Shown one piece after another: positions 53,976-63,669 of a stretch of DNA of 64,000 nucleotides. The position numbers were made by a program, and so were the translations under genes. This DNA is from Symmetrospora coprosmae (lineage: Eukaryota > Basidiomycota > Cystobasidiomycetes > Symmetrosporaceae). Position 1 is the first letter of the stretch. The number at the start of each line of letters is the position of its first letter. Location: NCBI GenBank assembly GCA_008802785.1, contig VUYT01000006.1:310001-374000 (forward strand). The letters run 5' to 3'. The notes under the pieces are model-generated. The model was not told where the DNA came from, did not search any database, and saw only the letters and a program-made list of their open reading frames with translations.

Positions 53976-54452
53976 ATGTCGAGCGGATCGTGAATAGTCG
54001 ATACCCGGAACACATAGATTTCCCTTGGTGCATGTCAGCACGCGCATCCACGCTCGAGCAGAAAGCTCTGTTCCGCTCGTTGTACGAGCGTGTCTCCCGA
54101 TGTAATGCAGTCCATCCGCTGAGATAGCGATTGCGCGCCGTAGCTTCAAAGTCCGTGAAAGGCAGCGCTCACTCTGCTAAAGAGCACTTCCCCTTTGCAT
54201 TGCCAACTACTTTTTCCAGACAACTACCACTACTGCTAACGAGATGAAGGAGCCAGGCTGCAGCCGAGCTTGCTGCTGTATTGGATACGGGCGACGCTCA
54301 ACGTCGGGATGAAGGTGGGGCAAACGAGCACTGCGAGTATCATCACGACCGTTCGGTCAAGCAGACGAGGGTCAGTGATCGTGCATGGACTGAGCCTGCA
54401 TCCTTTGCTCCATGACTGGAGGTCAGAAGTGTGTCTGTCAGCCTTGCATTCG
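53976..54452. other. Intergenic region between convergent SAC1 and CDC11
   Basis: About 475 bp of shared 3' flank; no gene supported. Confidence 0.45.
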
Positions 54453-56547
54453 TCAAACTGAACAGGGGAAGCCAAATGCGGCCAAGTCACCTTTAAGGCT
54501 CTCCTCCCTGGCGATGAGCTCCTGCCTCTTCTCGCTAATCTCCCTCTGGACCTTGATCTCGATCTCTCGGAGCTTCTCCTCTTCCTTCCGGAGCTGCTCC
54601 TCCTTGAGTCGGACCGACTGCGTGGCGAGGTCCTCCGGGTTGATGCTATTGCTCGAATTGTCCATGCCGGGCGAGAGGATGCCGGACCCGTCGCCGTTCG
54701 AAGAGGCACCCCCGGCCCCGCCGCCCGAGCCGAGGTTCAGGCCATTGACGGTCCGGCTCAGCTTTTCGGTCCGGTAGTTCTCGTACAGGAAGTCGTGCGT
54801 AATCTCCTTGAGGTCTGTCAGGTGCGTGTTGAGCAGGCACGAGCGCAGCCGCACAAAGTCGCTGTGTTGCGGGTTGTCGACCTCGACAATGCCCCACGGG
54901 TACCGCCGGGCGCGGATGATCTCGCCGTTCCCAATGTCAATCTCCTCCTCGCTTCCGACAATGGCAAAAGGCAGAAGGGCCTGCCACGAGGCAGTAGAGT
55001 CAGTCTTCTAGTCACGATCTCACTCGGCGTGTACATATCCCCACCCGCAGCTCGCTGTTGTCGGCAATCGTGTCCTCGTCATCCTCCTCGACGTCGTAAG
55101 GGAAGTTGTAGACTGGAATGCCATAGTGCTCAATGTCTTCCATAATCTGCAAGATGAGACAGAGTCTCAGTCCCATCCATCACTGCAGGCGAGCTTGAAG
55201 CAGGCAGCCACTCACCCTCGCTTTGAAGCCGGCGAGCTCTGATGGGGTGAGGGTGTCGGCCTTGCCAACGACGGGAATGACATTGACCCGTGGCGAGAGT
55301 CTCCGCATGAGCTCAATGTCCATCTCTCGGAGGCTGCAAACATGAGCAGAACCAGATTCAGCGGAGGTCAGAGAGGAGATCGACACAACGAGCGGGGCGA
55401 CCTACTGGTGTCCAGAAGGCGGGATGAAGTACAAGAGAGCATGGACACGGTTGTCTCTAAAGCGTGGGTTTCGCTTGATCCGCGACTCCTCGGCAAGAAT
55501 GTCGTCGTACTGGCGCTCGAGGTAGCCGACAATCTCCTGAAAGCTGTGTTGACGGACGTGCTCAGCCGAAAGTCCGGACATCTGCATGGAGCTACGTGAG
55601 ATCAAGCAGCACCCACGAATCGCTGCTGTCGATGGCATTACCAAAGCCAGGGGTGCTTGGAGGAGGATACCACACGGAGACTCAGCACATTGCCCTCGCA
55701 AAGTGGAGCGCCGAGACGGGCTCACTCGACAATGGTGAGGGAGATCCTGACCCCTTCCTCTTCCAGCTCTGTGTGAGCACCACGGACGGAATCGCAAGCC
55801 TGTCAGCACGACCCGTATCTGCTGCCGCGATGGGCACCTGTTAAAGCGCGACTTGCCGACGGTCACGGGCTGTGTGACGGACGCAGTAGCCGTGTCAGCC
55901 GTGTCAGCTGTACGGCCCGCTCCGGCAACGAAAGAGAAGCTCAACGCACCTTGATCTTTAGATCAGGGATGTCGTCCAGGGTGTGACCGAGGACATTGGA
56001 CTCGCAGAGGGTGTTGACAAAGGTCGTCCGTCCCGTCCCGGACGCGCCTTGGGAACGTTAGACATGGATGGTCAGCTCGTTCGGGGCGCCCGAGTGCGCT
56101 TGTAGCATCTGCATCGACTCACCGACTGCAAGCGTGTCGAGTAGATGCGAATAGTGCGGCACGGAGCGTTACAGCCGTGTCAGCTCTTGTGCCCCTGTGC
56201 CCCGACTCCTGAGATGGCGACGCGCCGTGCCGCAGCTGGAGCTGGAGCCGCAGCAGCTGCGATAGAGACGAGATCTCACTGACCGACTGAGAGTGGGATG
56301 GGAAGAGAGAGCGAGAGAGAGCGCGCTTGTGTTCAGCTGCAGCCCTGTGCCCTCCGCTGAGGCAGCCCAGCCCTGCCGCGACCGGACTCACCCATCAGCG
56401 TGAACTGGAGGCCTGTGGGCGCGTGAGCAAGGGGGGCCATCCCGGACAGCGTCAGCAGCAGCAGCAGCAGCAGCACCATCACCGCTATGGGAGGTGACAC
56501 TGAAACGCACCCTTCTTGACGTTCTTCCTTCGACTAGAGTGCATCAT
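54453..56547 (-). CDS. CDC11: Septin, CDC11 type
   Basis: Twelve proposed exons on the minus strand: 56547-56511, 56412-56392, 56286-56284, 56125-56123, 56047-55950, 55869-55857, 55768-55726, 55655-55617, 55543-55406, 55333-55216, 55146-55045, 54980-54453; sum 1143 nt, 380 residues. Start MMHSSRRKNVKKGLQFTLM, then P-loop VVGASGTGRTTF, the switch TIVDTPGFGNAID, RNPRFRDNRVHALLYFIPP, the G4 motif VVGKADTLT, NFPYDVEEDDED, LLPFAIVGSEEE, KYP-like RRYPWGIVEV, and a C-terminal coiled coil (LKEEQLRKEEEKLREIEIKV). The GASGTGRTTF loop is typical of the CDC11 group. Septins form GTP-bound filaments at the bud neck and septum. Two 3-nt exons supply the two valines before the P-loop, and the intron after 55857 is GC-AG (GCAAGT). 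Intron 1 contains a CAG repeat. Confidence 0.93.
55769..55856 (-). other. CDC11: GC-AG intron in CDC11
   Basis: Minus strand: GTC G|GCAAGT ... GCTCACACAG|AG CTG. Joining gives PVTVELEEEGVRISLTIVD, the conserved septin strand. GCAAGT is the consensus for GC donors. A GT donor in this stretch would break the frame. Confidence 0.85.
56123..56125 (-). other. CDC11: Candidate 3-nt microexon B of CDC11 (TCG)
   Basis: Minus strand: acceptor CGACACGCTTGCAG, exon TCG, donor GTGAGT. It adds a second Val; the leftover G joins GC of the next exon as Gly. The downstream intron is 75 nt. Yeast Cdc11 has two residues (Ile-Val) between Met and Gly here, as predicted when both microexons are included. Confidence 0.7.
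56284..56286 (-). other. CDC11: Candidate 3-nt microexon A of CDC11 (TCG)
   Basis: Minus strand: acceptor CCCATCCCACTCTCAG, exon TCG, donor GTCAGT. With a leading G from exon 2 it gives GTC (Val) and passes a G on. Introns on either side are 105 and 158 nt. Confidence 0.7.
56450..56475 (-). repeat. CAG/CTG repeat in CDC11 intron 1
   Basis: About eight tandem CAG units (plus-strand reading) between the exon 1 donor and exon 2 acceptor of the septin gene; non-coding in this model. Confidence 0.75.
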
Positions 56548-56982
56548 CGCGGGCGGGCGTGCAGGGTGGTACGGTCGAGTCCGTCAGGAACGGAGAGCAC
56601 GAGAGGGAGCGCGAGGGGGAGACAGGGGGGAGAACACCGACGTCGAGGTCGGACTCACCTTGCAGTGGGCGCCATCTTGGAGATTTGCACAACTGCAATT
56701 ACTGAACTCTGTGCAGACGAAGTGGGCAGGTGCAAACAGCGAGCGAGCGACGACGACGACTAAGGGACAAAGGGGACGGCGAAGTGAGCGGAGGTTCAGG
56801 GACGGGGAAGGAGAAGGGGTCAGTCCGCCACCAAGCAGGAGGGAGGCCTGTGCCTGAAGCCGGTGAATGCAGATTGCACCTCGAGATCTGCTTCCCCTTC
56901 TCTGTCTGTACAACAGCACACTCTGTATTCACTGTAACGACAGCACTGCTCAGCTTCACCCATCCTCCAGGCCCCCGCCCAC
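56548..56982. promoter_or_regulatory. Intergenic region, aconitase 3' end / CDC11 promoter
   Basis: About 435 bp. It contains purine-rich GGAGAAGGGG and GACGACGACGAC stretches (56745-56820) but no supported gene. Confidence 0.45.
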
Positions 56983-61557: not shown

Positions 61558-63669
61558 CTAATCCCACAGCTTGATCAAGCCGTCGTGGCTACCGGTGATG
61601 ACTTTCGACTGTGCAGAGGTGCAGCAATCTGCGTCAGCGTTGTTCAATACTCGGGGTACGATAGCAACTCACCGTCTCGTGTGGCAACCAGGCGTGAGAG
61701 ATGACGGCCTTGCTCGACACCCTGAGCTTCTTGAGCAGCCTGCAGTTCTTCCAGTCCCACATGACGAGGTTCCCTTCTCCGTCTCCCGACGAGAGGAACT
61801 TGCCGTCCGGCGAGAAGGCGACCTCGCAGGCGTACCCAGACGAGTTGTGCCCTGCGAACCGCTTCTTGCGGTTCTGCTTGAGATCCGGACTCGAGTAGAT
61901 GAGAATCTGGTTGTCGAGCGACTGCATGGCGAGGTACTTTAGGGATGGGTGCACGCCGACGGACGGCATCGAGTTCATGTGCGGCTCGGCAATGTACTTG
62001 ATGACGACGGGGATGTCCCAGTCCCAGGCGCGGACCGACTTGTCGTCAGAGGTGGTGACGAACCGGCGATTCTGGTCGACGAATGTAATGCTGTTGACGG
62101 GTCCCAGGTGCTGGTCGTACTCCTGCACAATCTCGCCCGATCGCGCGTCAAACTGGCAGATCTTCTTGTCCGACATGCCCGCGAGGAAGATGTCCTGCTT
62201 GTCCTCGTCCGGGTTGAACTTGATGCAGAAGGGGATCTTGCCGTTCCCGAACGCTTGCACGCACTGCCCGGTCTCGGTGTCCCACAGCTTGATGGTGCGG
62301 TCGTAGCTCGCAGACAGGAAGCGGGTGCCGTTGTTGTTGAACTGAACGTCGCGCACGCTCTGCCCGTGTCCCATGAATGTCCGCAGGCACTTGCCCTCGT
62401 GGTACACGTCCCACAGCTTGACGCGCGTGTCCATCGAGGAGGAGAGGAGGAGGTGCCCGGACTTGGGAAAGAGGCGCACGGCGTTGACACCCTTGGTGTG
62501 CCCGGACCACGTGTGGATGCACGTCTTTGGGATGTAGCTGTCCTGCGTTCCCGGCTCGCCCGTGAGGTTGACGTCGATGTCGCGCGGGATGTGCATGTAT
62601 GTCCGGCCCTGGTAGTCCTGCATGGACTTGCCATGGAACACGGACTTCTCCTCTCCGAACCCGACCTCCTGCTTGCTCTTGTGAATGATTGGGCCCTTCT
62701 TATTCCGTACGCGCTCGTGCATCTGGTACTCCTCCTCTGTCGGAACAGGCGGGGCGGTGGCTTCGTCCTTCCAACCCGCCCACGGTCCCATGTAAGCCTT
62801 TGCACGCTTGAGATCGTCCTCTTCGCTGCTAGCCTCTTCGTCCTGCCCTTCCTCCCCTTCTGCTCCGTCGCCTTTTGTCGGCTTGTCCTCTGCCGGATCG
62901 TCGAACACGCCGACCTTGCCCTTTGCCTTCCTCTTGCGCTTGATAGCTTTCACCTCTGCTTTCGGGGGGCGATAGTCTCTCACGGTTGCGCCATTCAGCG
63001 CATTGGCATTCGAAGCATCCCCGACAAAGCCGCTCCCGCCAGCCGCCCGCCCTCCGATAATCGATGGGTCGCGGGCGTACTGCAGCACGTTGAAGCTCAT
63101 GTGCTGGTTCCGAAAGTCGACGTCCGACATTGCCTGCTGCTCGACATGCCCTGTGAGCGTGTTGTAGGACTTCCCGAGTCCGGCCGACGAGCCGGCGCCT
63201 CTCAGCTGGCCGAGGACATTGTCTGGCCCTTCCACGGGACGTGTCATGTCCTCGTAGCTCAGGTTGATGTTCATGAGCGTGTCCGTGGGGCGTGTGATGA
63301 GCGAAGTGGACGGTTTGGAGAGGTCCTGGTTGCAGCCATCACAGTCATCAGCTTTCGTTGCTCCACCGTCGAGCTGGCTGCGAACCGCCAGTGGCCCACC
63401 TCTGTCAAGACATCCGGGTTGGCCAGACCAGCCGCAGCGCCGGAGATGGACGGTGCTGCTGCAGCTGCCCTGCTCGTGCTCGGCAGTGAGGCTATTGGCC
63501 TGCTGCTGCCTTGCGCTGTCGCAGTCGAGCCCAGATTTGCGAGACCAAAAGCGTCGCTGGCTGCTGCTGCCTCAATCGCAGCATCCTCCTCCTCCTCCTG
63601 CTCGCGCCGTTGCCGTTCGCTGATGGCAGCAGCATCCGCCTCCATGTCGTCTGTGATGTGCGCCTGCAT
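61558..63669 (-). CDS. PRP17: PRP17/CDC40 second-step splicing factor (WD40)
   Basis: Three exons on the minus strand (63669-63400, 63325-61673, 61608-61558; all phase 0) give 657 residues. An Ala/Glu-rich N-terminus precedes the family segment LITRPTDTLMNINLSYEDMT, formed by the first splice. A Lys-rich linker (EVKAIKRKRKAKGKVG) and SKQEVGFGEEKSVFHGKSMQ, DYQGRTYMHIPRDIDVNL follow, then seven WD repeats with clear GH...WD units: TWSGHTKGVNAV, KLWDVYHEGKCLRTFMGHGQ, KLWDTETGQCVQAF, VRAWDWDIPVVIKYIAEPHM, and the last, GSHDGLIKLWD, completed by the 17-codon final exon. Prp17 joins the spliceosome for the second catalytic step. Both an ATG at 63669 and one at 63645 are in frame. Confidence 0.95.

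Follow-up and report, generated by a model that had tools for sequence, protein, structure and literature searches.

Two putative consecutive 3-nt exons ahead of the P-loop in a CDC11-class septin gene of a yeast close to the Cystobasidiomycetes

Microexons as such are a known kind of exon. In the excerpts of the literature covered here, consecutive microexons of 3, 18, and 22 bp are reported for human RPS24 (PMC11162997), and adjacent microexons of 5 and 12 nt for plants (PMC8831610), e.g., in a Peptidase M1 gene (PMC11096116). A 3-nt exon is described in the covered parts of the respective reports for mouse NCAM (PMC8042270) and, as a 3-bp micro-exon, for homothorax (hth) of Drosophila, together with two 5-bp exons in Ubx (PMC7392893). 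Exons of 1 nt are recorded for the Fusarium gene CYP621A, where the exon was verified by reads (PMC12940212), and for Arabidopsis APC11, for which Guo and Liu judge intron definition with successive removal of the two introns to be more plausible (PMC4674806). The bglA gene of Rhodotorula minuta, whose current name is Cystobasidium minutum, has 22 exons, 10 of them under 30 bp and the smallest 6 bp, according to the portion of the report that gives the structure determined against cDNA, and a GC-AG intron lies beside microexons (PMC9142197). No case of two consecutive 3-nt exons turned up among the papers listed on consecutive or adjacent microexons, microexons in septins, smallest exons, or fungal microexons.

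The window analyzed, a stretch of 64,000 nt, contains a septin gene in which two consecutive 3-nt exons, both TCG, very probably supply the two valines of strand beta-1 just before the P-loop and would be constitutively included. This pair had been proposed from the letters of the DNA and is borne out by the sequence, the splice sites, the uniqueness of the coding solution with GT-AG introns, and a conserved requirement for exactly two residues, from which we infer the splicing itself.

The septin gene and its exon structure

The gene lies on the minus strand (56675-54372), and its full model of 14 exons (Table 1) encodes 383 amino acids with zero internal stops. A domain search places a septin GTPase domain (PF00735, E = 2.3e-105) at residues 13-283 of the product, yeast Cdc11 comes out on top among solved structures (5ar1, E = 1.3e-88), and several homologues among the matches listed bear the name cell division control protein 11, septin 3, or spn3. 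The predicted product is accordingly classed as a CDC11-class septin. Its top homologue among the matches listed, the Cystobasidium minutum septin with 86% identity, reads MVVGASGTGR at the corresponding place.

Table 1. Exons of the septin gene and the introns around the two TCG microexons (positions in the window; site strengths in bits with percentiles in the site matrix)
Feature	Length (nt)	Position	Strand	Sequence and sites	Basis
Exon 1 (coding part)	17	56659..56675	-		gene model, spliced alignment
Exon 2	23	56511..56533	-		gene model, spliced alignment
Exon 3	21	56392..56412	-	3' end CTG ATG G	gene model, spliced alignment
Intron 3	105	56287..56391	-	donor GTGAGT, 10.0	gene model, site matrix
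Exon 4 (putative microexon)	3	56284..56286	-	TCG; acceptor 7.0 (61st percentile); donor GTCAGT, 6.4 (17th percentile)	model, alignment, matrix, enumeration
Intron 4	158	56126..56283	-		gene model, site matrix
Exon 5 (putative microexon)	3	56123..56125	-	TCG; acceptor 6.7 (55th percentile); donor GTGAGT, 10.0 (79th percentile)	model, alignment, matrix, enumeration
Intron 5	75	56048..56122	-	AAG acceptor, 3.0 (6th percentile); branch-like CTGAC and CTAAC within	model, matrix
Exon 6	98	55950..56047	-	5' end GC GCG TCC; P-loop GASGTGRT	gene model, domain match
Exon 7 (microexon)	13	55857..55869	-	CCCGTGACCGTCG; followed by GC-AG intron (GCAAGT)	gene model, spliced alignment
Exon 8	43	55726..55768	-		gene model
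Exon 9	39	55617..55655	-	TPGFG motif	gene model
Exon 10	138	55406..55543	-		gene model
Exon 11	118	55216..55333	-		gene model
Exon 12	102	55045..55146	-		gene model
Exon 13	490	54491..54980	-		gene model
Exon 14	44	54372..54415	-	carries stop	gene model

The two triplets lie on the minus strand in a gap of 344 nt (56392 to 56047), exon 4 between CCACTCTCAG and GTCAGT and exon 5 between ACGCTTGCAG and GTGAGT. All elements quoted in the sequence-only reading, i.e., the exon ends, the TCG triplets, the acceptors, and the donors, were found where it had put them, and its intron lengths of 105, 158, and 75 nt are those of the gene model; the Ile-Val that it had given for these positions of yeast Cdc11 is present in the alignment to 5ar1. 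Its exon numbers had to be changed, since the full model adds the 17-nt first coding exon and the flanking exons 2 and 5 become 3 and 6. Its placement of the organism in Ustilaginomycotina was likewise abandoned: the nearest named relatives (the Cystobasidium minutum septin with 86% and a Cyphobasidiales MAG with 76% for PRP17) are both Cystobasidiomycetes of the Pucciniomycotina, and the organism is therefore close to that class.

With both TCG exons included, the coding sequence reads ATG G/TC G/TC G/GC (M V V G), and without them two residues are missing ahead of the septin P-loop. The predicted joined reading is ATGGTCGTCGGC / ATGGTCGTCGGCGCG, and partial or full skipping would give ATGGTCGGCGCG or ATGGGCGCG. 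Both exons are of phase 1-1, so that every combination of skipping stays in frame, as had been anticipated.

Two further features of the window may be mentioned. For exon 7, a donor after AACAG was ruled out by frame. The sequence PVTVELEEEG is restored with the GC donor GCAAGT, which the spliced aligner also picked with three references; with P0048 the 13-nt exon was left unused. The resulting GC-AG intron (55869-55769) resembles the GC-AG intron beside microexons in Rhodotorula minuta bglA, as far as the excerpt of that report goes (PMC9142197). The PRP17/CDC40 gene (61561-63669, minus strand; model without the 3' end) is 99% identical to P0186 and 76% to the Cyphobasidiales MAG. P0186 comes from a 2071-nt contig, and the window encodes it only after removal of two introns; this intron-free match suggests that P0186 represents public RNA of a near-identical organism.

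Conserved spacing, splice sites, and alternative readings

Two homologue searches, the second with the query septin deprived of both residues, provided 185 distinct homologues (the best 120 of 1583 and the best 120 of 560 matches). Exactly two residues separate the beta-1 core from the P-loop Gly by pattern in 179 of the 185 homologues among the matches listed, the pairs being VV in 113, VC in 63, VA in 2, and AC in 1 of these. P0014 was read by eye as VV, P0063, P0090, and P0117 are fragments starting MVVG or VMVVG, and the overall count among the matches listed is thus 183 of 185, the aberrant N-termini of P0094 and P0113 being impossible to judge. None of the 183 judgeable homologues among the matches listed has 0 or 1 residue at this place, even with the query that lacked both. 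With the two-residue spacing present in 183/185 of these homologues, the TCG exons are required for the conserved protein sequence.

The two exceptions are public septin models from Pseudohyphozyma bogoriensis (P0094) and Sporobolomyces roseus (P0113), both Microbotryomycetes. In each of them the N-terminus breaks precisely ahead of the P-loop Gly, which looks as if an intron or microexon had been mispredicted there. The residue before Gly (Ser and Leu, respectively) can have a codon ending in A, which would fit a translation that continued across an acceptor AG and on into an exon of phase 1.

Splice sites were scored with a matrix built on 84 well-flanked introns out of 110 that the same genome yielded at 16 other gene loci; these introns came from the spliced aligner with simple consensus scores, and the matrix is therefore not RNA-based. 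Only 3 of the 16 GT in the gap exceed 4 bits, namely, the donor of exon 3 with 10.0 and those of the TCG exons with 10.0 and 6.4, the next best reaching 3.8. Among the 23 AG in the gap, the acceptors of the TCG exons take the first and third places (7.0 and 6.7; second, 6.8), and the exon-6 acceptor, an AAG of 3.0 bits, is the weakest of the three acceptors used. Both TCG exons are hence flanked by plausible AG and GT sites with scores within the range of the genome's introns. Intron length in the 16 other loci has a median of 81 nt and a 95th percentile of 192 nt, by which measure an unsplit 344-nt intron would be unusual. The strict CTRAC branch motif is absent from intron 3 and present in 79 of 152 other introns in the stretch tested; branch-point motifs are not diagnostic in this genome.

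A spliced aligner with a minimum exon of 3 nt (1 nt in a second version) recovered both TCG exons unprompted with 3/3 references under simple consensus scores. With the trained matrix and 120 references, both exons were found with 88 and the second exon only with 27, in which the second position is occupied by Cys in 26 cases and by Ala in one; the 5 references that gave neither exon are truncated or aberrant. With P0001, two exons were preferred over one by 2.4 units and over none by 5.1, values that depend on the gap penalty; these margins are small, and it is therefore the conserved spacing and not the score that carries the argument. As a null model, introns and internal exons of up to 15 nt were shuffled across the whole gene, whereby the 13-nt CDC11 exon was lost too. 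The real score was reached in 0/40 CDC11 shuffles, a single spurious exon of at most 9 nt appeared in 4/40, and two appeared in none; across six genes, spurious calls were made in 13/240 replicates, and the real score was again reached in none.

The 27 of 120 references with which the aligner picked one exon, and a frame that stays open (LM-V-G), would be compatible with the use of only one TCG exon or an alternation of the two, resulting in a septin one residue shorter in beta-1. Such a product is unlikely, given that one-residue spacing occurs in 0/183 judgeable homologues among the matches listed and that the exon-4 acceptor is the top-scoring of all 23 AG in the gap.

As to their origin, the two exons might go back to a tandem copy of one exon together with its intron, or a repeated intron element might have been inserted. 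Both are TCG with sites alike, and the similarity of their neighborhoods is marginally above that of shuffles (24/500 as good), but the similar stretch is out of register with the exons and the 344-nt gap has no second copy in the genome. No introner-like repeated intron was found in that genome search, which skips simple repeats and matched only the query itself. An origin by copying is not supported and must be regarded as unlikely.

Uniqueness of the solution was assessed by enumeration. With GT donors, introns of at least 50 nt, and six bases placed in a single exon or a pair, the 344-nt gap admits VVG and no other solution. A wider enumeration, in which the donor could be any GT or GC, introns had at least 40 nt, single exons were at most 60 nt long, and exon pairs added up to 6 nt, yielded no single 6-nt exon in the gap, GC donors included. 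Allowing GC donors gave other six-base pairs with a final Gly, e.g., ALG, ACG, ARG, and GLG, which rely on donors (gcgctc, gcacgg) unlike GCAAGT/GCGAGT; Ala-Cys does occur in one homologue. The gap was also dinucleotide-shuffled 20,000 times: two hydrophobic residues followed by Gly were obtained in 1,261 of the shuffles and VVG in 28, and with all four sites at 6.0 bits or more an acceptable solution in 1 and VVG in 0. Among 8,117 genomic stretches, which overlap and are not independent, the respective numbers were 538 and 61, falling to 0 and 0 at the 6.0-bit threshold, which was picked after the observed scores were known.

A six-base assembly collapse or natural deletion could also have taken TCGTCG off the end of exon 3, the TCG motifs in the gap then being a coincidence. 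The septin paralogue on contig C21 (L016, ~1886-1667, minus strand) lends itself to this idea with a contiguous ATGGTCGTCG ahead of its intron: it reads ATG GTC GTC G/gtgggt...cacacag/GC GAG TCT, with the same codons and an intron only at the third junction, and the C55 and C1 septins are read through in one frame at this place. CDC11 accordingly has the V/G junction in common with one paralogue and, beyond that, two additional junctions that fall within the GTC codons. Collapse or deletion is nevertheless quite improbable, because it would leave an unusually long intron and because a solution as strong as the one present was so rare in the shuffled and genomic controls, subject to the post hoc threshold.

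Equally improbable is a regulated switch. The sequence-only reading had envisaged isoforms with 0, 1, or 2 valines, and all combinations are indeed in frame; the isoforms themselves appear unsupported, and no sign of regulated skipping was found. The two-residue spacing is kept in the 183 judgeable homologues among the matches listed, with 0 or 1 residue in none of them, a full skip would need the weakest acceptor (3.0 bits versus 7.0 and 6.7), and since the beta-1 strand runs straight into the P-loop, loss of a residue would probably break the GTPase fold. Least credible is that both exons are skipped and exon 3 is joined to exon 6, which would keep the frame open at the price of a septin without the two residues, a spacing seen in 0/183 judgeable homologues among the matches listed, of a 344-nt intron beyond the 95th percentile (192), and of a choice of the weakest acceptor (3.0 bits) past two stronger ones.

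Very small exons in other conserved genes

A survey with the aligner allowing 1-nt exons covered 42 gene loci, CDC11 included, and comprised 187 internal exons, of which 117 were well flanked and 13 of these 117 were 15 nt or shorter. In the 29 genes whose references reach an identity of about 50% or above, 13/144 internal exons were of this size and were distributed over 9/29 genes, a rate that is not a genome average, as the loci were picked from conserved families. Three of the 13 tiny exons are those of CDC11, and one, the 13-nt exon of L021, is doubtful, as it lies next to a 449-nt intron close to the 3' end. A start in the first third of the coding sequence was recorded for 12/13 exons of 15 nt or less versus 68/106 internal exons longer than 51 nt, and for exons of 30 nt or less the 5' bias has a Fisher p of 0.03; the bias is modest because so many of the long internal exons also start there.

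Several of these exons restore conserved residues, e.g., a 5-nt exon ATGGG in actin (L019; MGQK), a 6-nt exon ACATCG in Ran (L042; YIA), and the 8-nt exon TGTGTCGG in Hsp70 (L028; CVG). In EF1A (L055), a first coding exon ATGGG of 5 nt and the 10-nt exon AAAGGAGAAG read MGKEK. The beta-tubulin gene (L059/L022, genome G000, contig C35, locus on the minus strand) begins with exons of 9, 11, 8, 1, and 16 nt reading MREIVHLQTGQCGNQ, and the predicted joined read of this 5' end is ATGCGCGAGATCGTCCACCTTCAGACGGGCCAATGT. Its probable 1-nt exon, a G between ttcag and gtgcgt, restores QTGQCGNQ and leaves 166 and 141 nt of a 308-nt interval on its two sides. In 20,000 shuffles, AG-G-GT with sites at least as strong was found in 7 and any AG-G-GT in 1,504. 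A one-base assembly error in the G run that ends the 8-nt exon could account for this case as well.

A 3-nt GTC exon called by the aligner in a Rho-like gene (L040/L061) was left out of the 144 exons because the first exon of the gene was aligned to unrelated sequence. The N-terminal KLVIV before the P-loop of this gene was looked for and not found.

The statement that two 3-nt exons in a row are exceptional was therefore too strong for the genome itself, whose sampled conserved genes repeatedly show exons no longer than 15 nt. The TCG exons look like members of a broader set of very small exons that this genome has in conserved genes and would not represent a septin-specific switch. On balance, extrapolation from the 42 sampled loci leads us to lean toward the view that the yeast keeps constitutive exons of 1 to 15 nt genome-wide in its core genes. 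The spliceosome would then have to remove neighboring introns routinely one at a time although hardly any exon separates them, and its early splicing factors might be adapted to this.

Splicing of the septin exons and comparison with known systems

Short introns favor recognition across the intron. The introns of 105, 158, and 75 nt may each be recognized in this way (intron definition), in which case exon size would set no limit on recognition. A 3-nt exon would amount to no more than the exonic portion of a U1 site, directly abutted by the acceptor, so that U1 and U2AF probably could not be on both sides at once and the introns would be removed one after another. The acceptor strengths of 7.0, 6.7, and 3.0 would favor inclusion over skipping. 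If RNA agrees, the gene would provide a natural case of two consecutive 3-nt exons at an essential motif, in a genome with recurrent exons of this kind. The yeast is a good test of the smallest exon that the splicing machinery can handle, as some exons of its core genes seem to be as short as one letter.

The known systems, as far as the excerpts of their reports extend, resemble the septin exons in different respects. RPS24 shares with them a 3-nt exon among consecutive microexons, although only one of its exons has 3 nt and all are alternative and tissue specific; homothorax shares a 3-nt exon, which is there an alternative form nested in a longer exon. The plant pair of 5 and 12 nt likewise consists of neighboring tiny exons in a conserved region that were overlooked by annotation, but the plant and algal exons are longer and were verified by RT-PCR or RNA-seq. 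In CYP621A, a fungal exon at the size limit was spotted in the same manner, via an incomplete conserved motif and within an intron too long for the species, yet it is a single 1-nt exon verified by reads. The exon of APC11 is tiny and constitutive, and the intron-definition reasoning applied to it would fit the TCG exons, whereas it is a single exon from a plant that was experimentally tested. The bglA gene comes from the same class of yeasts and has a GC-AG intron by its microexons, as is the case at the 13-nt CDC11 exon; its exons, in contrast, are at least 6 bp long and were determined from cDNA.
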